From Parerythrobacter lutipelagi (GTDB taxonomy: Bacteria; Pseudomonadota; Alphaproteobacteria; Sphingomonadales; Sphingomonadaceae), in assembly GCF_005434975.1 (NCBI RefSeq), contig NZ_SKCJ01000002.1, positions 992,001 through 1,056,000 on the forward strand: a stretch of 64,000 bases of DNA. Reading direction: 5' to 3'. The position numbers and the translations under genes were made by a program. The notes beneath the pieces are model-generated. The model did not search any database. It was not told the origin of the DNA and saw only the letters and a list, made by a program, of their open reading frames with translations. This document shows, in pieces, positions 7,036-53,500 of the stretch (position 1 is its first letter; each line of letters begins with the position of its first letter).

Positions 7036-8133
7036 CTAGTCGGGCACGACCCACTTGATCGATATGGCCTGGTATTTGAGTCCTTCGTAATCGCCCTCGC
7101 CTTCTGCGAAGTCGAAGCGGCCGTAACGGGCCAGCTGCAGGCAGGTGTCGTTATCCAGATAGACGTGGCCCGAAGTCTTTACGGGCCTGCATGTGGCGAC
7201 CCGGCCATTTCGATTGATCCCGATGATCACATCGGTCCTGCCGTCGAGATCCATCCTTATGGCACGACTCGGGTACTGGATGCGCGCTGCGGCAGAGGGC
7301 CTGATAGTCGCCTGATCACGGGTAAAATCGGGCAATTCGGACAGCTTGCGAGAGGCATATTTCGGAGTTCGCTTCAATGCATCGCTGCGCGGAGACGCCG
7401 TATAGAAATATTGCAGCGTGGTGTCGGCCCGGTTCACCGGAATGTCGCAGCGCATTTTCACGCTTCTCTTATCCACGCTGTCAACCTCGCGGCACGACGT
7501 GTCTCGCCATTCGTCATCGTCTTCGAACTTGTCACAAAGTACTGCCCGCTCCGGCGGAGAGATCACCATCCGGGCATCCGCAGGTCGCGCATAGCAACTG
7601 TAAACGATGCCGCTCTCGCGATCCAAGCCGCTGACAATGAAGCCGGCAGTCTCCGCGCTCCCTGCGTCGAGATCATCCAAGGCAATTGTATGAGTTGGAG
7701 CAGGCTGTGCAGCGAAGCTGATCGCAATCCGTCCATGCTGGCCCGCCAAATCATAGGAACTGAATGGCGTAACGGTGGCCGATTGCATCAAGGCGGCGCA
7801 AATAAGCTCGCGCTGTGCTGGCGACAATTCTTCCGCCATGGGGGTGCAGCGCAGCGGCTTACCCTGTTGGTCGACATACAGATCGACATCCTGCTTCATA
7901 CGCACCGGAAGTCTACCCAACGGTATGAGGGCCCTCTGGTCGGGTTCGAAAGACATGGCCGAAACGCGATGTATATCCACATCGTTCACTGGAGGCTCTG
8001 CCGGCATGTGGATTGTGCGCGTCGTAATGGCGGTGTATTCGGTCGGCTGTTTCGGGTCGTTCTGGGCAGCCGTTGGCGACGCTAAGGTGGCCGCAGCCGA
8101 TATGCTGGCGATCATGCCAATGAACAGACGCAT
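7036..8133 (-). CDS. Secreted protein with TonB-like C-terminal domain, function unknown
   Basis: The 365-residue product has a signal peptide (about 1-23, ending SPTAAQ) and a C-terminal region of about 80 residues (RIQYPSRAIRMDLDGRTDVI onward) resembling the TonB C-terminal fold: a YP start, a GxTDVxIGINxxGRV strand pair and a cysteine pair. The middle part is unassigned and contains several cysteines. There is no N-terminal anchor typical of a true TonB, so it is probably periplasmic. The ATG at 8133 is chosen over the GTG at 8136 because AGGAG lies 6 bp ahead of it. It overlaps the gshB stop as TGATG. Confidence 0.7.
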   Translation of the reverse strand: MRLFIGMIASISAAATLASPTAAQNDPKQPTEYTAITTRTIHMPAEPPVNDVDIHRVSAMSFEPDQRALIPLGRLPVRMKQDVDLYVDQQGKPLRCTPMAEELSPAQRELICAALMQSATVTPFSSYDLAGQHGRIAISFAAQPAPTHTIALDDLDAGSAETAGFIVSGLDRESGIVYSCYARPADARMVISPPERAVLCDKFEDDDEWRDTSCREVDSVDKRSVKMRCDIPVNRADTTLQYFYTASPRSDALKRTPKYASRKLSELPDFTRDQATIRPSAAARIQYPSRAIRMDLDGRTDVIIGINRNGRVATCRPVKTSGHVYLDNDTCLQLARYGRFDFAEGEGDYEGLKYQAISIKWVVPD

Positions 8134-9080
8134 CACAGTCTCCTCTCGATCGCATCCCAGATCAGCGCTGGTGTGTCCGTCCCGTTAAATTCGTCGATCG
8201 CGACGATCCCGGTTGGTGACGTCACGTTGATCTCCGTCAGCCATTTGCCGCCGATCACATCGATCCCGACAAACACCAGACCCCGCTTCTTCAGTTCCGG
8301 TCCCATTGCCGCGCAGATTTCCTCTTCGCGAGCCGTCAGCTCGGCGGCTTCTGCATATCCGCCTTGCGCAAGGTTCGACCGAAATTCGCCCTCACCGGGG
8401 AAGCGATTGATCGCCCCGCTGACTTCACCGTCGACCAGCACAATGCGCTTGTCGCCCTCGGCGACTTCGGGAAGGAATGGCTGCACCATATGCGGCTCCG
8501 GCCATGTCTGATTGAAGACTTCAGACAGGGCTGAAAGATTGGTGCCGTCGGCTTCGATCCTGAAGATCGCCTTGCCGCCATTGCCATGCAGCGGTTTCAC
8601 CACAACCGCACCATATTTTGCATGAAATGCGCGGATGTCTTCCAGCTTACGCGCGACCAGTGTTGGCGGCATGAATTGTGCATAGTCGAGCACGAACATC
8701 TTTTCCGGCGCATTGACCACTTCGCGCGGGTCGTTGACCACCAGAGTATGCCCTTTGAGCCGGTCGAGCAGCAGAGCGGCGCTGATATAGCCGAGTCCGA
8801 ACGGTGGGTCCTGCCGCATCAGGATCACATCGATATCGGCGGCGAGATCGATCTTCCTTGTCTCGCCCTGCCACTCGAAATGCGCGCCTTCTACGCGCTG
8901 GACAGTCAGCGGACGTGCCCATGCGGTGATCCGGCCGTCCTCATAGGCCAGTGTGGTAACATCGTAATGCCAGACCTTATGTCCTCTTGCTTGCGCTCCC
9001 AACATCAGCGCGAAACTCGAGTCCCCTTTAATGTTGACGCTTTCGATCGGGTCCATCTGGACAGCTACGCGCAGGCTCAT
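8133..9080 (-). CDS. gshB: Glutathione synthetase
   Basis: GshB ligates glycine to gamma-glutamylcysteine using ATP, the last step of glutathione synthesis. The 315-residue product matches the family length. It starts with the GshB-specific MSLRVAVQMDPIESVNIKGD and contains the ATP-grasp blocks VVKPLHGNGGKAIF (about residues 158-171), GDKRIVLVDGEVSGAINRFP and the C-terminal GIDVIGGKWLTEINVTSPTG with metal-binding Glu and Asn. It sits downstream of yraN and rsmI on the same strand, a common alphaproteobacterial order. Confidence 0.97.
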   Translation of the reverse strand: MSLRVAVQMDPIESVNIKGDSSFALMLGAQARGHKVWHYDVTTLAYEDGRITAWARPLTVQRVEGAHFEWQGETRKIDLAADIDVILMRQDPPFGLGYISAALLLDRLKGHTLVVNDPREVVNAPEKMFVLDYAQFMPPTLVARKLEDIRAFHAKYGAVVVKPLHGNGGKAIFRIEADGTNLSALSEVFNQTWPEPHMVQPFLPEVAEGDKRIVLVDGEVSGAINRFPGEGEFRSNLAQGGYAEAAELTAREEEICAAMGPELKKRGLVFVGIDVIGGKWLTEINVTSPTGIVAIDEFNGTDTPALIWDAIERRL

Positions 9081-10335: not shown

Positions 10336-11511
10336 ATGAAGCGCTATTCCATGGATCGACGCGGCCTAACAGTCCTCGCGGCGACCATATTCCTGGCTGG
10401 GTGCCAGATCATTCCCAAGGCTCCCGCACCCACGACACCGGGGCCGACCACAACCGATCCAACGCCGGAGCCGAGCGCCACTGCGCTGCCAAGTGGTGAC
10501 AACACACGTCACAGGATCGCCCTGTTGGTACCGATGAGCGGCGATAATGGCGCGGTGGGCAATGCGATTGCCAATGCAACCATGATGGCGATTCTCGATA
10601 CCAGTGCGAGCAATCTGCGCATCACGACCTACGACACGTCGTCCGGTGCGCGTTCGGCAGCGCGCAAGGCGGTCGCCGACGGGAACAAGCTCATTCTGGG
10701 TCCATTATTGGCCGACAATGTGCCGCAGGTCCTCGCAGAGGCACGTCCGGCCGATGTCCCGATCATATCCTTTTCCAATGATGCGAGTGTCACAGGGCCA
10801 GATGTCTTCGTGATGGGGCAGATCCCTGCCCAATCAATTGCCCGCACGGTTGGCTACGCCCGCCAGAACGGCGCAGCCAATTTCGCCTCCATCGTGCCGG
10901 AGGGCGAGTACGGCCGCAGTGTCGAGGCAGCTTTCGAAACAGCGGTGGTCGGCAACGGCGGACGGGTCGTGGCAAAAGAAACCTATGACCGGAGCAACAC
11001 ATCGATCGTCAGCGCGGCGCAGAGACTGCAGCAGCGTGGCGGTTTCGATACTGTCCTGATCGCTGACGGGGCCCGCCTGACGGCTTTGGCAGCAAGCGAA
11101 CTGAAGGCGCGCGGACAAGGTCCGGCCCGGCTACTCGGAACCGAACTGCTGAGCGGTGAGGCAGGTGTGACCCGAACCACGGCGATGAGAGGCATGCTGT
11201 TCTCGGCCATTTCCGATACACGGTTCAAGCGCTTTGCCGACAGCTATCGTGAGCGTTTCGGTGATCAGCCTTATCGCATTGCAACCCTGGGATATGATAG
11301 CGTGCTCCTGACCCTCAGGGTCGCGCGCGAGTGGCGCGTCGGTCGCGATTTTCCCGTTCGCCAACTGCGTGAAGATGGCGGCTTTCTCGGCCTTGATGGC
11401 CCGTTCCGGTTCAATCGCAGCGGTGTGATCGAACGCGCCATGGAAGTGCGGGAAATCCGCGATGGCCAGGTTGTGATTGTTTCGCCTGCACCGACCGCTT
11501 TCCAGGACTGA
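10336..11511 (+). CDS. LpoA-like penicillin-binding protein activator lipoprotein
   Basis: The 391-residue product has a lipoprotein signal with lipobox FLAGC (Cys at about 23), a proline- and threonine-rich linker (about 28-53), then a periplasmic type-1 binding-protein fold starting RIALLVPMSGDNGAVGNAI. This architecture fits the LpoA/YraM family, outer-membrane lipoproteins that activate penicillin-binding proteins. The location next to rsmI and yraN agrees, as lpoA-yraN neighbour rsmI in enterobacteria. It lacks the N-terminal TPR domain of E. coli LpoA. The start at 10336 gives the shortest lipoprotein signal; 10306 and 10351 are alternatives. Confidence 0.82.
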   Translation: MKRYSMDRRGLTVLAATIFLAGCQIIPKAPAPTTPGPTTTDPTPEPSATALPSGDNTRHRIALLVPMSGDNGAVGNAIANATMMAILDTSASNLRITTYDTSSGARSAARKAVADGNKLILGPLLADNVPQVLAEARPADVPIISFSNDASVTGPDVFVMGQIPAQSIARTVGYARQNGAANFASIVPEGEYGRSVEAAFETAVVGNGGRVVAKETYDRSNTSIVSAAQRLQQRGGFDTVLIADGARLTALAASELKARGQGPARLLGTELLSGEAGVTRTTAMRGMLFSAISDTRFKRFADSYRERFGDQPYRIATLGYDSVLLTLRVAREWRVGRDFPVRQLREDGGFLGLDGPFRFNRSGVIERAMEVREIRDGQVVIVSPAPTAFQD

Positions 11512-11562
11512 AGATAAAGCACAGCTTCTGCTTGTGGCGCGGCGAATCCGCAGCCTATAGCC

Positions 11563-13545
11563 ATGCCCATGTCTGATGATCTGTTTGAAGGTACGCCCGC
11601 GTCCAGCGGCGACTATGATTCCTCGTCGATCGAGGTGCTCGAAGGCCTTGAGCCGGTGCGCCGCCGCCCCGGCATGTACATCGGCGGGACAGATGATCGC
11701 GCCCTGCACCATCTCGCTGCCGAAGTGCTCGACAACGCGATGGATGAAGCGGTGGCAGGCCACGCATCGCGCATCGAAGTTTCGTTGGAGGAAGGCAATC
11801 GCCTTTCCATAGCGGACAACGGGCGCGGGATCCCGGTTGACGAACACCCCAAGTTCCCGGGTAAATCGACGCTGGAAGTGATCCTTTCGACATTGCATTC
11901 CGGCGGCAAGTTTTCCGGCAAGGCCTATGCCACATCGGGCGGTTTGCACGGCGTCGGGGTGAGCGTGGTGAACGCGCTATCGAGCGATACGCGGGTCGAG
12001 GTTGCTCGCGACAGGAAACTATATGCGCAATCCTTCTCCAAGGGAGAGACCAGCGGCAAGCTGGAAGAGCTCGGACCGACACCGAACCGCCGCGGAACAA
12101 CGGTAAGTTTCACGCCCGACACGGAAATATTCGGTGACCGGCAGTTCAAACCGCACCGATTGTTCAAATTGGCCCGGTCGAAAGCCTATCTCTTTGCCGG
12201 AGTGGAAATCCGCTGGAAGTGTGCTGAAAGCCTGACTTCCGAAGATGTCCCGTCCGAAGCGGTATTCAAATTTCCCGGCGGCTTGGCGGATCATCTGGCG
12301 GAACAGGTCGGCGCGCGCGAATGCGTTACCGCGCAACCCTTCACCGGGACGCAGGAATTTCCCGACGAACAAGGCCGGGTGGAATGGGCAATCGCATGGC
12401 CGCTCTATTCCGACGGTTCGACCAGCTGGTATTGCAACACGGTCCCCACTCCGGATGGCGGCACGCACGAGCAAGGCGTCCGGGCCGCGCTGACCAAGGG
12501 GCTCCGCGCGTTCGGCGAGCTGACCAGCACCAAGAAGGCAAAGGACATCTCTGCCGATGATGTCATGACCGGCGCGGAAGTGATGCTCAGCGTGTTTATC
12601 CGCGATCCGCAATTCCAGTCGCAGACCAAGGACCGGCTGACCTCGCCCGAAGCTGCACGGTTGGTCGAGAATGCCGTGCGCGACCATTTCGATCACTTCC
12701 TGACCGATAATATGGAGCGGGGCAAAGCGCTGCTCGGTGAAGTGATGGAGCGGATGGATGAACGGCTCCGGCGCAAGCAGGAGCGTGAGATCAAGCGCAA
12801 GACTGCGACCAGTGCCAAGAAGCTGCGCCTGCCGGGAAAGCTCACCGATTGCAGCGGTGAGACCGACGCCGAGACCGAGCTATTCATCGTCGAAGGCGAT
12901 TCTGCTGGCGGTTCCGCCAAGCAGGCCCGCAATCGGAAAACCCAGGCTATCCTGCCGATTCGCGGCAAGATCCTCAATGTTGCCTCGGCCAGTGCCGACA
13001 AAATCCGCGCCAATGCTGAAATTGCCGATCTCGGTCTCGCGCTTGGCTGCGGCACGCGCAAGGACTGCGATCCGGAGAATTTGCGTTACGACCGTATCAT
13101 CATCATGACCGATGCGGATGTCGACGGGGCACATATCGCGACTCTGCTGATGACATTCTTCTTTCAGGAGATGACCGAGATCGTCCGCAAGGGACATCTG
13201 TTCCTCGCTCAACCGCCGCTCTATCGTCTGACGGCCGGCAAAGAGAGCCGTTACGCCGCCGATGACGCACATCGCGCGGAACTCGAAGCAACGGTCTTCA
13301 AAGGCAAGAAAGTCGAAGTCGGCCGCTTCAAGGGCCTGGGCGAGATGAACCCGTCACAGCTACGCGAAACCACCATGTCGCCCGAGACCCGCTCTCTGGT
13401 GCGGATCACCCTGCCCGCCGAATTCGAAGATCGCGCGGCGGTCAAGGAGCTGGTTGACCAGCTGATGGGCCGCAACCCGGAACATCGGTTCAATTTTATC
13501 CAGAACCGTGCCGGTGAAGTCGACCGCGATCTTATCGATGCATAA
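11563..13545 (+). CDS. parE: DNA topoisomerase IV subunit B
   Basis: ParE is the ATPase subunit of topoisomerase IV, which unlinks daughter chromosomes together with ParC. The 660-residue product has the GHKL ATPase domain (EVLDNAMDEAVAGHA, NGRGIPVDEHPK, GGLHGVGVSVVNALS), the transducer domain, and the Toprim domain with FIVEGDSAGGSA near residue 445 and TDADVDGAHIATLL near 520. It ends with the GLGEMNPSQLRETTM block. Its length and lack of the GyrB insertion favour ParE over GyrB. Starts at 11563 and 11569 are both possible. It overlaps the following small gene by 8 bp. Confidence 0.93.
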   Translation: MPMSDDLFEGTPASSGDYDSSSIEVLEGLEPVRRRPGMYIGGTDDRALHHLAAEVLDNAMDEAVAGHASRIEVSLEEGNRLSIADNGRGIPVDEHPKFPGKSTLEVILSTLHSGGKFSGKAYATSGGLHGVGVSVVNALSSDTRVEVARDRKLYAQSFSKGETSGKLEELGPTPNRRGTTVSFTPDTEIFGDRQFKPHRLFKLARSKAYLFAGVEIRWKCAESLTSEDVPSEAVFKFPGGLADHLAEQVGARECVTAQPFTGTQEFPDEQGRVEWAIAWPLYSDGSTSWYCNTVPTPDGGTHEQGVRAALTKGLRAFGELTSTKKAKDISADDVMTGAEVMLSVFIRDPQFQSQTKDRLTSPEAARLVENAVRDHFDHFLTDNMERGKALLGEVMERMDERLRRKQEREIKRKTATSAKKLRLPGKLTDCSGETDAETELFIVEGDSAGGSAKQARNRKTQAILPIRGKILNVASASADKIRANAEIADLGLALGCGTRKDCDPENLRYDRIIIMTDADVDGAHIATLLMTFFFQEMTEIVRKGHLFLAQPPLYRLTAGKESRYAADDAHRAELEATVFKGKKVEVGRFKGLGEMNPSQLRETTMSPETRSLVRITLPAEFEDRAAVKELVDQLMGRNPEHRFNFIQNRAGEVDRDLIDA

Positions 13546-13912
13546 GGATGACGCACCGCTGATCGAGCCGGAAGACGGCGACATAATGGCGGGCGACCGC
13601 CGCATCGCCCGGGCCGATACCGCGTTGCCGGACTGGTATATTTCGGATGGCGCATACCGCTCGATCCCGATTGCATGGTTTGCCGGCGCGCTGATCCTGC
13701 AAGTAATCGTACAGCCGGCCATCTTCTTCCTGCTGCTCGGCTTTTCCGGCCTTTATACCATCGCCGCGGGCTTGCTCGTCACCGGCATAATCGCGCATTT
13801 CACCTGGCGACGCGGCATGGCCGAGGCGAGCCGAACGTGGCAGGTCGCGACGGCCCTGATGCTGCTGTTTTTCCTGTCGTTGACAGTCATCACAGCTATC
13901 TCCCGCATTTGA
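13538..13912 (+). CDS. Small integral membrane protein, function unknown
   Basis: The 124-residue product begins with a hydrophilic, acidic stretch (about 1-45, containing DTALPDWYISDGAYRSIP) and then has three hydrophobic segments at about 48-65, 68-85 and 100-122. It is probably an inner-membrane protein. No domain is recognised. The ATG at 13538 lies inside the end of parE, so translation may be coupled; an internal ATG at 13589 would remove 17 residues. The codon use looks like the neighbours. Confidence 0.7.
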   Translation: MHKDDAPLIEPEDGDIMAGDRRIARADTALPDWYISDGAYRSIPIAWFAGALILQVIVQPAIFFLLLGFSGLYTIAAGLLVTGIIAHFTWRRGMAEASRTWQVATALMLLFFLSLTVITAISRI

Positions 13913-50273: not shown

Positions 50274-51374
50274 ATGGGTTTCCGTTGCGGAATCGTCGGG
50301 CTGCCCAATGTCGGCAAGTCCACCCTGTTCAACGCGTTGACTGAAACGCAAAAAGCCGAAGCGGCCAATTATCCGTTTTGCACGATCGAGCCGAATGTCG
50401 GCCAGGTGTCTGTGCCGGATGAAAGGCTCGACCAGATTGCCGCGATCGCCGGGTCCGCGAAGGTCGTGCCGACCCAGCTCGCATTCGTCGATATTGCCGG
50501 ACTCGTGAAGGGCGCGAGCCAAGGCGAAGGGTTAGGTAATCAGTTCCTCGGCAATATCCGTGAAGTCGATGCCATCGTCCATGTGCTTCGCTGTTTCGAA
50601 GATGACGATATTCAGCACGTTTCCAATCGGGTCGATCCCCTGGCCGATGCCGATGTAGTCGAGACCGAGTTGATGCTGTCGGATATCGAGAGCCTGGAAA
50701 AGCGTGTCGAGAATGCGAAGCGGCGCGCCACGGCGGGCGACAAAGAGGCCAAGGCACTCGCCAGCGTGCTCGGGCAAGCGCTTGAACTGCTCAAGGACGG
50801 AAAGCCTGCCCGGCTGACAGAACCGAAGGACGATGTTGAAGCCGCACTGTTCGAGCAGGCGCAATTGCTCACAGCCAAGCCGGTGCTCTATGTGTGCAAT
50901 GTATCGGAAGAAGACGCTGCTGCCGGCAATAGCCTGTCAGCAGAGGTGTTTGCCAAAGCCGAACGCGAGGGTGCGCAAGCCGTCGTGGTGTCAGCGGCAA
51001 TTGAAGCCGACCTCGTGGGAATTCCGCAGGAAGACCGGGCCGAATTTCTCGCAGATCTCGGGCTTGAAGAAAGCGGGCTGGCTCGGGTGATCAAGGCAGG
51101 ATACGCTTTGCTCGGGCTCAAGACATTCTTCACCGCCGGGCCGAAAGAAACGCGCGCATGGACCTATCCCGATGGCGCAAAGGCACCGCAAGCAGCGGGT
51201 GAAATCCATACCGATTTCGAGCGGGGCTTCATCCGTGCCGAAACCATCGCGTTCGACGATTACATTGCGCTAAAGGGTGAAGCCGGCGCGCGCGATGCCG
51301 GCAAGCTGCGTCAGGAAGGCAAAGAATATATTGTGCAGGATGGCGACGTGTTGCTGTTCAAATTCAACGTTTAG
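50274..51374 (+). CDS. ychF: YchF/OLA1 redox-regulated ATPase
   Basis: YchF is a universal, ribosome-associated P-loop protein that prefers ATP over GTP. The 366-residue product has GLPNVGKST (about residues 8-16), the G3 region FVDIAGLVKGASQGEGLGN, and CNVSEED in place of the GTP-specifying NKxD, as is normal for the family. A coiled-coil region and the C-terminal TGS domain (DGDVLLFKFNV end) follow. The ATG at 50274 follows CCGGAG; the frame opens at 50226 but begins before the family start. Confidence 0.96.
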   Translation: MGFRCGIVGLPNVGKSTLFNALTETQKAEAANYPFCTIEPNVGQVSVPDERLDQIAAIAGSAKVVPTQLAFVDIAGLVKGASQGEGLGNQFLGNIREVDAIVHVLRCFEDDDIQHVSNRVDPLADADVVETELMLSDIESLEKRVENAKRRATAGDKEAKALASVLGQALELLKDGKPARLTEPKDDVEAALFEQAQLLTAKPVLYVCNVSEEDAAAGNSLSAEVFAKAEREGAQAVVVSAAIEADLVGIPQEDRAEFLADLGLEESGLARVIKAGYALLGLKTFFTAGPKETRAWTYPDGAKAPQAAGEIHTDFERGFIRAETIAFDDYIALKGEAGARDAGKLRQEGKEYIVQDGDVLLFKFNV

Positions 51375-51434
51375 GGACCGATTTCGCGCCCCGCTCGTTG
51401 CAGCCCCGAAGGAAGTTTCAAACGGGGTTTGGTC

Positions 51435-52235
51435 ATGGTCGACAAGTCGGAAAAATTCAACTGGCTGGTTCGCCTCGGCTATTTCAGCAGGGCGCTTCTC
51501 TACACGGTGCTCGGTCTTATCGCGCTGACCAGCGCGGGCGAGATCAGCAAGGGAACTGACGGCATTTTTCGCGCGATCGAAGGTTTTCCGGCGGGCACGG
51601 CCATTCTCTGGCTGATGGTCCTCGGGATGCTCGGCTACGCGCTATTCCGCTTTTGCTCGCCGCTGTTTGATATTGAAAACGAGGGCAGCGACGCGCTTGG
51701 CTGGGGCAAAAGGCTGGGCCATGCCGGTAGCGCGGTCGGCCACCTTGCCCTCGCCTACTCGGCATATAAATTCGCCACCGACAAATCATCCGGTTCCGGC
51801 GGAGGCGCGCAGGAAGCAGCGGCAGGTGTCCTGTCGTTCGAACTGGGTGGTATCGTGCTCGGCATCCTCGGGATTGCCTTCTTCCTTGCGGCTGCAAATC
51901 AGGGCAAGAAAGCCTACACCGCCAGCTTCATGAACCGCATCGCGGGCGATGCGCCGAGCCAGACGAAGCTTGCAGGCCGGATCGGTTACGCTGCGCGTGC
52001 AGTCGTCTTTCTGGTCATCGGGTGGTCAGTGTTCAGCGCGGGATTCCTCTCGGGTGGTTCGGAGCAAATCAAGACCCTGGGTGATGCAGTCGCTTCGCTG
52101 GCCGGTGAAGGGATTATCTTCACACTGACCGCGCTCGGCTTGCTGATTTTCGGGCTCTTCAGCTTCGTCCTTGCGCGTTATCGGATCATTCCCGATCTTG
52201 GTGACGATGGGCGGATCCCCTCGTTCCGCGCATGA
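51435..52235 (+). CDS. DUF1206 integral membrane protein
   Basis: The 266-residue protein has three repeats of a two-helix unit, the hallmark of DUF1206: WLVRLGYFSRALLYTVLGLIAL near residue 10, KRLGHAGSAVGHLALAYSAYK near 90 and LAGRIGYAARAVVFLVIGWSVF near 175. About six transmembrane helices are visible. Function is unknown. The ATG at 51435 is preferred over TTG at 51429. The gene ends 38 bp before the glutaredoxin fusion gene. Confidence 0.87.
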   Translation: MVDKSEKFNWLVRLGYFSRALLYTVLGLIALTSAGEISKGTDGIFRAIEGFPAGTAILWLMVLGMLGYALFRFCSPLFDIENEGSDALGWGKRLGHAGSAVGHLALAYSAYKFATDKSSGSGGGAQEAAAGVLSFELGGIVLGILGIAFFLAAANQGKKAYTASFMNRIAGDAPSQTKLAGRIGYAARAVVFLVIGWSVFSAGFLSGGSEQIKTLGDAVASLAGEGIIFTLTALGLLIFGLFSFVLARYRIIPDLGDDGRIPSFRA

Positions 52236-52244
52236 GCTCTTGCA

Positions 52245-52263
52245 TATACCCCCCAGGGGTATA
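52245..52263. promoter_or_regulatory. CsoR-type operator ahead of the glutaredoxin-MauE gene
   Basis: The sequence is a perfect palindrome TATACCCC-CCA-GGGGTATA (8-bp arms, 3-bp centre). Sites of the form ATACCCC...GGGGTAT are bound by CsoR/FrmR/CstR-family regulators of copper, formaldehyde or persulfide. It ends 10 bp before the ATG at 52274. A TATAAA at 52260-52265 could be the -10 element, which would give a nearly leaderless mRNA. No regulator of this family is in the window. Confidence 0.7.
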
Positions 52264-52273
52264 AATTGCATCC

Positions 52274-53014
52274 ATGGCAAAAAGCGCGAAACTCTATCGA
52301 ATGAAGATGGACAAGCATGTCTGTCCGTACGGCATCAAGTCCAAGTGGCTGCTGGAACGACAGGGCTACTCTGTCGATGATCACCCTCTGACTACGCGCG
52401 AAGAGACTGATGCGTTCAAGGCTGAACACGGGGTTTCGACTACGCCGCAAACGTTCATAGAGGGCGAGCGTATTGGCGGTTACACCGATCTGCGCGCGCA
52501 TTTCGGCAACCCGGTGCGCGATCCCGACGCGACCAGTTACAAGCCGGTGCTTGCCGTGTTTGCGGTGGGTCTGGCGATTGCGCTTTCGCTCAGCCAGTTT
52601 ACTTACGAAACGCCCTTCACTATCCGCACGATTGAATGGTTCATCGCGTTTTCCATGGCGATGCTCGCCATGCTCAAGCTGCAGGATGTCGAGAAGTTCT
52701 CTTCGATGTTCGTCGGATATGATCTGCTCGGGAAGCGGTTCGTTCCCTACGCCTATGCCTACCCATTTCTCGAAGCGCTGGCTGCGGTCCTGATGGCGGG
52801 ACGCGTCTTGCCCTGGATTTCGATCCCGGTTGCTTTGACGATCGGCACGATCGGCGCAGTTTCCGTATTCTACGCAGTCTATGTTCAGAAGCGCGAGATC
52901 AAATGTGCCTGCGTTGGCGGCAGTGCAAGCGTTCCGCTCGGCTTTGTATCGTTGAGTGAAAACCTTGCGATGATCGGGATGGCGGCGTGGATGCTGGTGC
53001 AGCCCGTCTTGTAG
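52274..53014 (+). CDS. Glutaredoxin-MauE fusion membrane protein
   Basis: The 246-residue protein joins an N-terminal glutaredoxin domain (about 1-80; CPYG at residues 17-20, a monothiol form, then VSTTPQTFIEGERIGGY) with a four-helix MauE/DoxX-like membrane domain (about 92-245). The second part carries a CACVGG motif in the loop before its last helix. Such proteins are expected to pass reducing power or thiols across the membrane. The CsoR-type operator immediately upstream suggests induction by metal, aldehyde or persulfide. No clear ribosome site precedes the ATG. Confidence 0.87.
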   Translation: MAKSAKLYRMKMDKHVCPYGIKSKWLLERQGYSVDDHPLTTREETDAFKAEHGVSTTPQTFIEGERIGGYTDLRAHFGNPVRDPDATSYKPVLAVFAVGLAIALSLSQFTYETPFTIRTIEWFIAFSMAMLAMLKLQDVEKFSSMFVGYDLLGKRFVPYAYAYPFLEALAAVLMAGRVLPWISIPVALTIGTIGAVSVFYAVYVQKREIKCACVGGSASVPLGFVSLSENLAMIGMAAWMLVQPVL

Positions 53015-53017
53015 CGG

Positions 53018-53500
53018 TCAAGCGCCGCACTCCAGCACGCCGGTCGCAGTGTAGATTGTTCGGTCGCGCTCGTCGCTGATGCTGATCGCGCCGTCGTAAT
53101 GAACCAATTCCGGTGCGATGACTTTTTCGCTCTCGCGGTCGATGGAAATTCGCACTGCGTTCTCCAATCCATCGTAGTGGGCATGGGCACCGAACTGCAG
53201 ATCTTCCGAGCCCACATCGGACGCGGCGCGCACGAACTTGTCGCCCTGCTTGAAGATTGCCTCGTTCCGATTGCCGATCAGCAGCATCGGGCCGCCTTCA
53301 TCGCGCATGAAGCTGCAGCCTGCGCCAAGCATCCCCGCGGCTTCGACATCCGCGCGCGAGATTTCCTGCAATTCAATGGCGACTGCTGGACCCAGAGCAA
53401 GCTCGTTCATCCGGTCCACATCGACAGGCACGTCCCGTTCGTTCTCGGCAGAACAGGCGATCACGCCAAAGACCAAAGGGATCGGAATCAATGCCCGCAT
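53018..53500 (-). CDS. Small lipoprotein of unknown function
   Basis: The 160-residue product starts MRALIPIPLVFGVIACSAEN, a lipoprotein signal with Cys at about 16. The mature part holds VEAAGMLGAGCSFMRDEGGPMLLIGNRN and many acidic residues. No domain is recognised. The ATG at 53500 overlaps the mutL stop as TGATG, so it is translated after mutL. The frame extends to 53572 within mutL without a signal. It converges with the fusion gene, 3 bp apart. Confidence 0.7.
   Translation of the reverse strand: MRALIPIPLVFGVIACSAENERDVPVDVDRMNELALGPAVAIELQEISRADVEAAGMLGAGCSFMRDEGGPMLLIGNRNEAIFKQGDKFVRAASDVGSEDLQFGAHAHYDGLENAVRISIDRESEKVIAPELVHYDGAISISDERDRTIYTATGVLECGA

Follow-up and report, generated by a model that had tools for sequence, protein, structure and literature searches.

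The window analysed here, a stretch of 64,000 nucleotides from Parerythrobacter lutipelagi, contains a gene, called grx-mauE in the following, whose product joins a glutaredoxin domain to a membrane domain of the MauE family, and immediately before this gene lies an inverted repeat of the CsoR type, with a DUF1206 gene ending just upstream on the same strand. The features of the locus are collected in Table 1.

Table 1. Features at the grx-mauE locus (positions of the window)
Feature	Position	Strand	Remark
DUF1206 gene	51429..52235	+	9 bp between its stop codon and the palindrome; often the neighbour in relatives too
Possible -35 element TTGCAT	52240..52245	+	weak; TTGA in 24/27 operator-bearing orthologues
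CsoR-type operator TATACCCC-CCA-GGGGTATA	52245..52263	.	8-bp arms, 3-bp spacer, 19 bp in total
Possible -10 element TATAAA	52260..52265	+	putative; overlaps the right arm of the palindrome
grx-mauE, glutaredoxin fused to five-helix MauE membrane domain	52274..53014	+	246 aa
Glutaredoxin domain	52313..52474	+	residues 14-67; CPYG with Cys17 as the sole active-site Cys
MauE domain	52619..52999	+	residues 116-242 (Pfam)
CACVGG loop (Cys211, Cys213)	52904..52921	+	precedes the final membrane helix; predicted to face the cytoplasm, as does the glutaredoxin domain

The first-pass annotation had described a perfect palindrome 10 bp before the ATG, and this is what we find, the arms being exact over 8 bp and the ATG lying at 52274. 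No other match to the palindrome occurs in the window even with up to three mismatches, where shuffled sequences predict 0.02, and in the whole genome the pattern ATACCCC-N3-GGGGTAT has two exact sites against 0.013 expected from base composition. A chance palindrome was rejected on these two expectations (0.02 in the window, 0.013 in the genome) and on the position of the second copy, which is at csoR. The TATAAA within the right edge of the palindrome overlaps the right arm just as had been claimed; TTGCAT and TATAAA are separated by 14 nt, and when 51300-53100 was scanned for consensus sigma-70 promoters (spacer 16-18 nt), none was found. This TATAAA would place the start of transcription at or next to the ATG, so that a leaderless mRNA is likely. 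Since there is no consensus promoter, we infer this start, on the basis of the spacing of 11-12 nt between operator and start codon in 27/27 operator-bearing orthologues.

As for the protein, both halves of the proposed glutaredoxin-MauE fusion were matched in Pfam, namely PF00462 Glutaredoxin with E 4.5e-5 and 24.0 bits against a cut-off of 22.9, and PF07291 MauE with E 5.7e-14 and 53 bits against a cut-off of 27 over 127 residues; the two motifs named in advance, CPYG and CACVGG, were located at residues 17-20 and 211-216. Cys17, Cys211 and Cys213 are the invariant cysteines in 36 aligned sequences. Dithiol CPYC glutaredoxins make up class I and CGFS glutaredoxins class II, while the active site CPYG belongs to neither, being a CPYC-like variant with a single thiol; the TP and GG motifs of the domain are presumably those of glutathione-binding glutaredoxins. 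The MauE family takes its name from a role in methylamine dehydrogenase maturation. The AlphaFold2 model (mean pLDDT 89.7) shows the N-terminal domain followed by five long helices, the Cys-x-Cys loop lying between the fourth and the fifth of them, and provided that the glutaredoxin domain is cytosolic, the number of helices and the positive charges in front of CACVGG (KRE) would put the loop in the cytosol too. The glutaredoxin domain superposes on Francisella Grx1 3msz with a fold Z of 11.6 and an rmsd of 1.6 over 74 residues, and the matches listed from the fold search with the whole model are Grx/GST-type hits covering the N-terminal part. Thiol oxidoreductases of the VKOR/DsbB type have a redox pair of Cys in a bundle of four helices. 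For the MauE part alone the best Foldseek match (6wv8, E 0.22) is weak, VKOR-like and within the noise for helical bundles, and so is the superposition on VKOR 6wv4, with a Z of 8.0 over 120 residues at 4.6 A. A thiol-relay role, as first suggested, seems plausible.

A search of the genome (3.10 Mb in two contigs) for regulators of the CsoR/FrmR/CstR family found exactly one PF02583 gene, at C1:137.9 kb, with E 2.4e-27 and 96.8 bits against a cut-off of 22.8. The search for the same palindrome elsewhere gave one further copy, at C1:137858-137874, which lies between this csoR and a divergent pair of genes, a multicopper oxidase (TIGR01480 copper_res_A, 693 bits against a cut-off of 479) followed by a CopB gene (PF05275); the relaxed pattern ATACCC-N(3-8)-GGGTAT returns the same two places only, csoR/multicopper oxidase and grx-mauE. 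The assignment of the palindrome to the CsoR type is thus well borne out, as the only other copy in the genome is held by the promoter of the sole PF02583 regulator. Aligned with the CsoRs of known structure, the protein shares Tyr-Cys, His and Cys with 4m1p and 2hh7 and the Glu with 2hh7; it has the Cys-His-Cys ligands together with the second-shell Tyr (A) and Glu (B), which is the Cu(I) fingerprint. The available text of PMC4235346 states that the pattern of Cys/His ligands is by itself not predictive of the metal and that a Tyr at this position of the family does predict Cu(I) selectivity. The label RicR was rejected because the copper-sensing NCBIfam model of that name (NF052430), the best of three models matched, scores 78.9 bits, below its curated cut-off of 175. 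Compared with the CsoR Cu(I) repressors 4m1p, 4adz and 2hh7 (the last from M. tuberculosis), the protein is of the same family (phmmer E 2.4e-17 to 4m1p), has the same Tyr-Cys/His/Cys set and likewise has an inverted-repeat operator at its own promoter; it differs in that a multicopper oxidase-copB pair is transcribed divergently from its gene and in that the sole other operator copy stands at a Grx-MauE gene. Three inducers had originally been proposed, copper, persulfide and aldehyde. The Cu(I) fingerprint and the multicopper oxidase/CopB partner at the other site narrow the choice to copper, with aldehyde falling away for want of Pro2 and persulfide left as the weaker candidate, both of which are weighed below. 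As the palindrome matches the site of the only copper-sensor-type repressor in the genome, grx-mauE is probably switched on by copper.

Conservation was followed in the best 80 of 415 orthologous loci, taken from named genomes, an operator being called at up to one mismatch. The palindrome recurs at 27 of these 80, so that the reading lacks neither an encoded regulator, with one PF02583 gene in the genome, nor conservation in related genomes. The distance from operator to start codon is 11 nt in 22 of the 27 and 12 nt in the other 5, where for three of them (L009, L023, L033) the ATG at 11 nt was chosen as start codon on inspection; the sequence in between varies and its length barely does. 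At a fixed place upstream, column counts give TTGA in 24/27, where the window has TTGC. Such fixed spacing, together with the TTGA, is what a repressor site within the core promoter of a leaderless transcript would look like. PF02583 is encoded by 26 of the 27 operator-bearing genomes. At L040 the operator stands at grx-mauE (gap 2, one mismatch) in a genome with no PF02583 match, and it may be a relic, a chance match or the result of missing sequence.

The csoR regions of 20 of these 26 genomes were compared. In 19 of the 20 a site with at most one mismatch lies upstream of csoR (L150 is the csoR without a site), 17 of the 20 have a divergent multicopper oxidase, and YC, H and C are kept in all 20 csoR products. 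Moreover, in 119 genomes of the same family ATACCC-N5-GGGTAT has 51 exact sites in 38 genomes, while the reversed control pattern gives 11 matches in all; of the 51 sites, 38 precede a PF02583 gene by at most 200 bp, 5 are upstream of grx-mauE and 8 are elsewhere, some of these 8 being likely due to chance in view of the 11 control matches. PF02583 is found in 36/38 of the site-bearing genomes against 59/119 overall. Two of the 8 were looked at, both perfect palindromes of the CsoR type: one precedes another multicopper oxidase (L124 position 2139, in G006), and the other lies between unassigned ORFs (L125 position 2082, in G077).

The CsoR-type operator is absent from 53 of the 80 orthologues, which fall into 18 with a different operator and 35 with neither. 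In the 18, the place of the CsoR site is taken by TCCGTAC-N4-GTACGGA with up to one mismatch, which we call the MerR-type operator; a call at four mismatches gives 21, and at the stricter threshold L043, L063 and L070 belong to the neither-operator class. A divergent gene of the MerR family is present at 18/18 such loci (L071 being cut by the contig end) and at 0/62 of the others. In a second set of 49 loci, which represent 46 distinct places, 8 of them common to the 80, an adjacent MerR-family gene is found at 15/15 loci with the MerR-type operator at up to one mismatch (one of them, L102, is also among the 80) and at 0/34 of the rest. Ten genomes of the 18 were searched for further copies, and in 10/10 the MerR-type operator occurs once, at grx-mauE. 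PF02583 matches occur in 5/18 genomes of this class and none of them reaches 82 bits, while in each of the 26 CsoR-class genomes the best one exceeds 90 bits; the Fisher p, uncorrected for phylogeny, is 1e-11 for strong PF02583 matches and 1e-6 for any. Of the 27 CsoR-class loci, 26 have DUF1206 and 26 have mutL in the fetched flanks; the corresponding numbers are 11 and 14 for the 18 MerR-class loci, and 23 and 22 for the 35 loci with neither operator. Since these flanks are common to both operator classes, grx-mauE would in many lineages have kept its place while coming under another regulator. In P. lutipelagi itself a MerR-type site was rejected, the best match having 2 mismatches in 14 fixed bases; at up to three mismatches there are 35 matches against 123 for the reversed control.

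The MerR-like regulators at these orthologues have a DNA-reading segment resembling that of MerR and an operator of the TCCGTAC-N4-GTACGGA type, and their metal loop is Cys-x7-Cys, as it is in CueR. MerR binds mercury through Cys82, Cys117 and Cys126, while CueR has a Cys-x7-Cys loop, Ser77 and no third Cys. In all 16 aligned regulators (of 18) Cys-x7-Cys is kept and the place of MerR Cys82 holds Arg, which sets them apart from the mercury activators of the MerR kind, two Cys being kept; the loop is a CueR-type feature, but Arg stands in place of the Ser. The CueR model gives three of these proteins 71.2, 78.2 and 87.3 bits against a cut-off of 147.4, and none of the three reaches the cut-off of any named sensor class. 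Copper oxidase and CopB genes are in the fetched flanks of 2/18 loci of the class (L084, L088), and our guess would be that the effector is Cu(I). At the loci with the MerR-type operator, L049, L068, L084 and L088 among them, this regulator group lies just upstream of grx-mauE.

The genomes of the 35 loci with neither operator encode PF02583 in 29 cases, which means that having csoR need not entail control of grx-mauE, and together with the 53 orthologues lacking the operator this makes CsoR control lineage-specific. Two of these loci, L082 and L085, adjoin csoR and copper genes, while many of the rest lie behind DUF1206, from which transcription may run on into grx-mauE.

A linkage with copper genes is seen around the relatives' gene copies. 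In the 119 genomes 67 full-length copies of grx-mauE were counted, nine Grx-only partial matches being left out and two of the 67 (G066, G045) having a stop inside the match; 21/67 are within 6 kb of csoR, and 11 of these within 100 bp. For example at L085 the order is csoR, grx-mauE, DUF305, a small ORF and a Cu-type ATPase, beside a divergent multicopper oxidase and CopB; at L127 and L129 the two genes overlap at the end of csoR, with the multicopper oxidase divergent across the palindrome at L127. Within the fetched flanks of the 27 operator-bearing loci, no copper oxidase, CopB, DUF411, Cu ATPase or csoR was found (0/27), so that at these 27 the link to copper is carried solely by the operator; the gene stands alone there in a housekeeping neighbourhood, as it does in the window. 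The genome of P. lutipelagi has a second grx-mauE at C2:1337864 (7844-8605 of locus L122), 61% identical to the first, with neither a CsoR-type nor a MerR-type operator (L176), whose neighbours are an ECF sigma factor, Metal_resist, DUF411, an amino-acid permease, an ion channel and DUF305. In the same region (L122, G000:C2:1330000-1346000) rhodanese/metallo-beta-lactamase, DoxX and Blh-like genes lie at 10870-13720, the rhodanese/beta-lactamase-fold gene about 2 kb and the DoxX and Blh-like genes 4 to 5 kb from the second copy; copper-linked genes and genes of a sulfur-transfer type are side by side there.

Altogether, we propose that grx-mauE is under Cu(I)-responsive control by CsoR, and give this reading a probability of about 0.78. 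Without excess copper CsoR would occupy the core promoter of grx-mauE and block RNA polymerase; binding of Cu(I) by its Cys-His-Cys ligands would then release it, and a leaderless grx-mauE mRNA would be made. The product would be a membrane-anchored enzyme facing the cytosol and acting on glutathione and thiols, with the monothiol glutaredoxin Cys17 and the Cys-x-Cys of MauE, and it may counter the copper toxicity of cytosol and membrane, either thiol oxidation and glutathionylation or by the handling of Cu(I)-thiolates; in this division of work the multicopper oxidase and CopB would act outside and Grx-MauE inside. The regulatory part appears strong by comparative sequence, where the operator, the single regulator, the pattern of two sites, the partial conservation and the copper linkage can be read directly; the binding of CsoR, the inducer and the start of transcription at grx-mauE are presumed from them.

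The chemistry of the protein is the least certain part. Our best guess, by analogy with PrxGrx of Bordetella, which copper controls (PMC7794356), is a glutathione-linked protection of thiols at the membrane under copper, and a redox role of any such kind stands at about even odds. As the main alternative, compatible with CsoR control, it is also possible, if rather doubtful, that Grx-MauE is mainly a membrane protein which binds or hands on Cu(I) and is no redox enzyme: Cys17, Cys211 and Cys213 are invariant, copper-linked genes lie beside the grx-mauE of relatives, and the Cys-x-Cys is on the predicted cytosolic face, but the glutaredoxin domain retains its TP and GG motifs and the best fold matches of the membrane domain, weak as they are, are VKOR thiol oxidoreductases.

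An improbable reading, which leaves the operator and changes the inducer, is that the regulator is a CstR-like sensor of persulfide or sulfide and that grx-mauE handles glutathione persulfide. In CstR the positions X and Z are Cys and the His/Tyr/Glu network for Cu(I) is missing; in the regulator of P. lutipelagi both Cys are there, but the network is kept. For the persulfide reading there are the two Cys, which CstR likewise has at X and Z according to the available excerpt of PMC5146963, and the main hint towards sulfur comes from the rhodanese/beta-lactamase-fold, DoxX and Blh-like genes near the second grx-mauE. It is due to these sulfur-transfer-type genes by the paralogous copy that persulfide is kept as a candidate, though a weaker one, since the Tyr-His-Glu network is tied to Cu(I) selectivity, the other operator copy precedes the copper multicopper oxidase and CopB, and 17/20 of the related csoR loci have a multicopper oxidase in divergent orientation.

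It is very improbable that the palindrome is a transcript hairpin or an accident and that grx-mauE is read through from DUF1206. The DUF1206 gene does end just upstream on the same strand, and among the best 80 of 415 orthologues 35 have neither operator, 23 of these 35 with DUF1206 in the fetched flanks; against this stand the 0.013 exact sites expected per genome with the same site at csoR, the 11-12 bp to the start codon in 27/27, and PF02583 in 26/27 operator genomes, though it is also in 29/35 of the neither-operator genomes.

FrmR operators are of a similar CCCC/GGGG type. That the regulator is FrmR-like and grx-mauE answers to formaldehyde is scarcely credible even so, for while FrmR is of the same protein family and appears among the weaker NCBIfam matches, its model gives 32.5 bits where the cut-off is 133, inspection by eye of the ORFs at the csoR/multicopper oxidase locus showed none resembling frmA, and the Pro2 that FrmR needs with Cys35 according to the available text of PMC5146963 is absent from a protein which, from its predicted start codon, begins M-D-R and has the Cys, leaving an aldehyde inducer unsupported.

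Returning to copper-responsive control by CsoR, a close comparison is copZ-prxgrx-gorB of Bordetella pertussis (PMC7794356), where a glutaredoxin-containing fusion is also under a copper sensor and copper is coupled to thiol and oxidant defence; it differs in that the partner domain is a peroxiredoxin and the sensor CueR, and the available text of that source mentions no membrane domain. The product matches PF07291 like other membrane proteins of the MauE/DoxX type, and differs from them by the fused cytosolic glutaredoxin and the link to copper genes. DoxX genes sit in copper-related bufferin clusters according to the available part of PMC12452194, in which the words MauE and glutaredoxin are absent, and the available part of PMC10304878 deals with glutathione in copper resistance. 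The literature matches listed on MauE in connection with copper or glutaredoxin, on CsoR in connection with Sphingomonadales or glutaredoxin, and on the operator sequence include no description of grx-mauE.

From this an uncharacterised fusion protein gains a specific candidate function that can be tested, the defence against copper on the thiol side of cytosol and membrane, and a two-site CsoR regulon is pointed to in an alphaproteobacterium. Moreover, the apparent exchange of CsoR for a dedicated regulator of the MerR family at one syntenic gene is a natural case of regulatory replacement, and if the effector of the MerR-like proteins were Cu(I) as well, they would be a new type of sensor, in which a MerR-like operator is read via a two-cysteine loop. 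A tentative wider proposal, with a little less than an even chance, is that grx-mauE encodes an undescribed membrane enzyme of copper stress, GSH-driven, with three thiols and facing the cytosol, whose control has been swapped in place between CsoR and a dedicated single-target activator of the MerR family with a MerR-like DNA-reading head and a CueR-like two-cysteine loop, so that two unrelated soft-metal sensors would have been recruited to one gene.

The fusion was found in 16/289 genomes drawn across the class, 3 of the 16 being from the same family as the window, and outside this family it is sporadic. In one genome of another family (L175) csoR is the divergent neighbour of grx-mauE and a palindrome of the CsoR type is found some 120 bp upstream of the latter gene, which is a separate arrangement of what appears to be the same CsoR/grx-mauE wiring.
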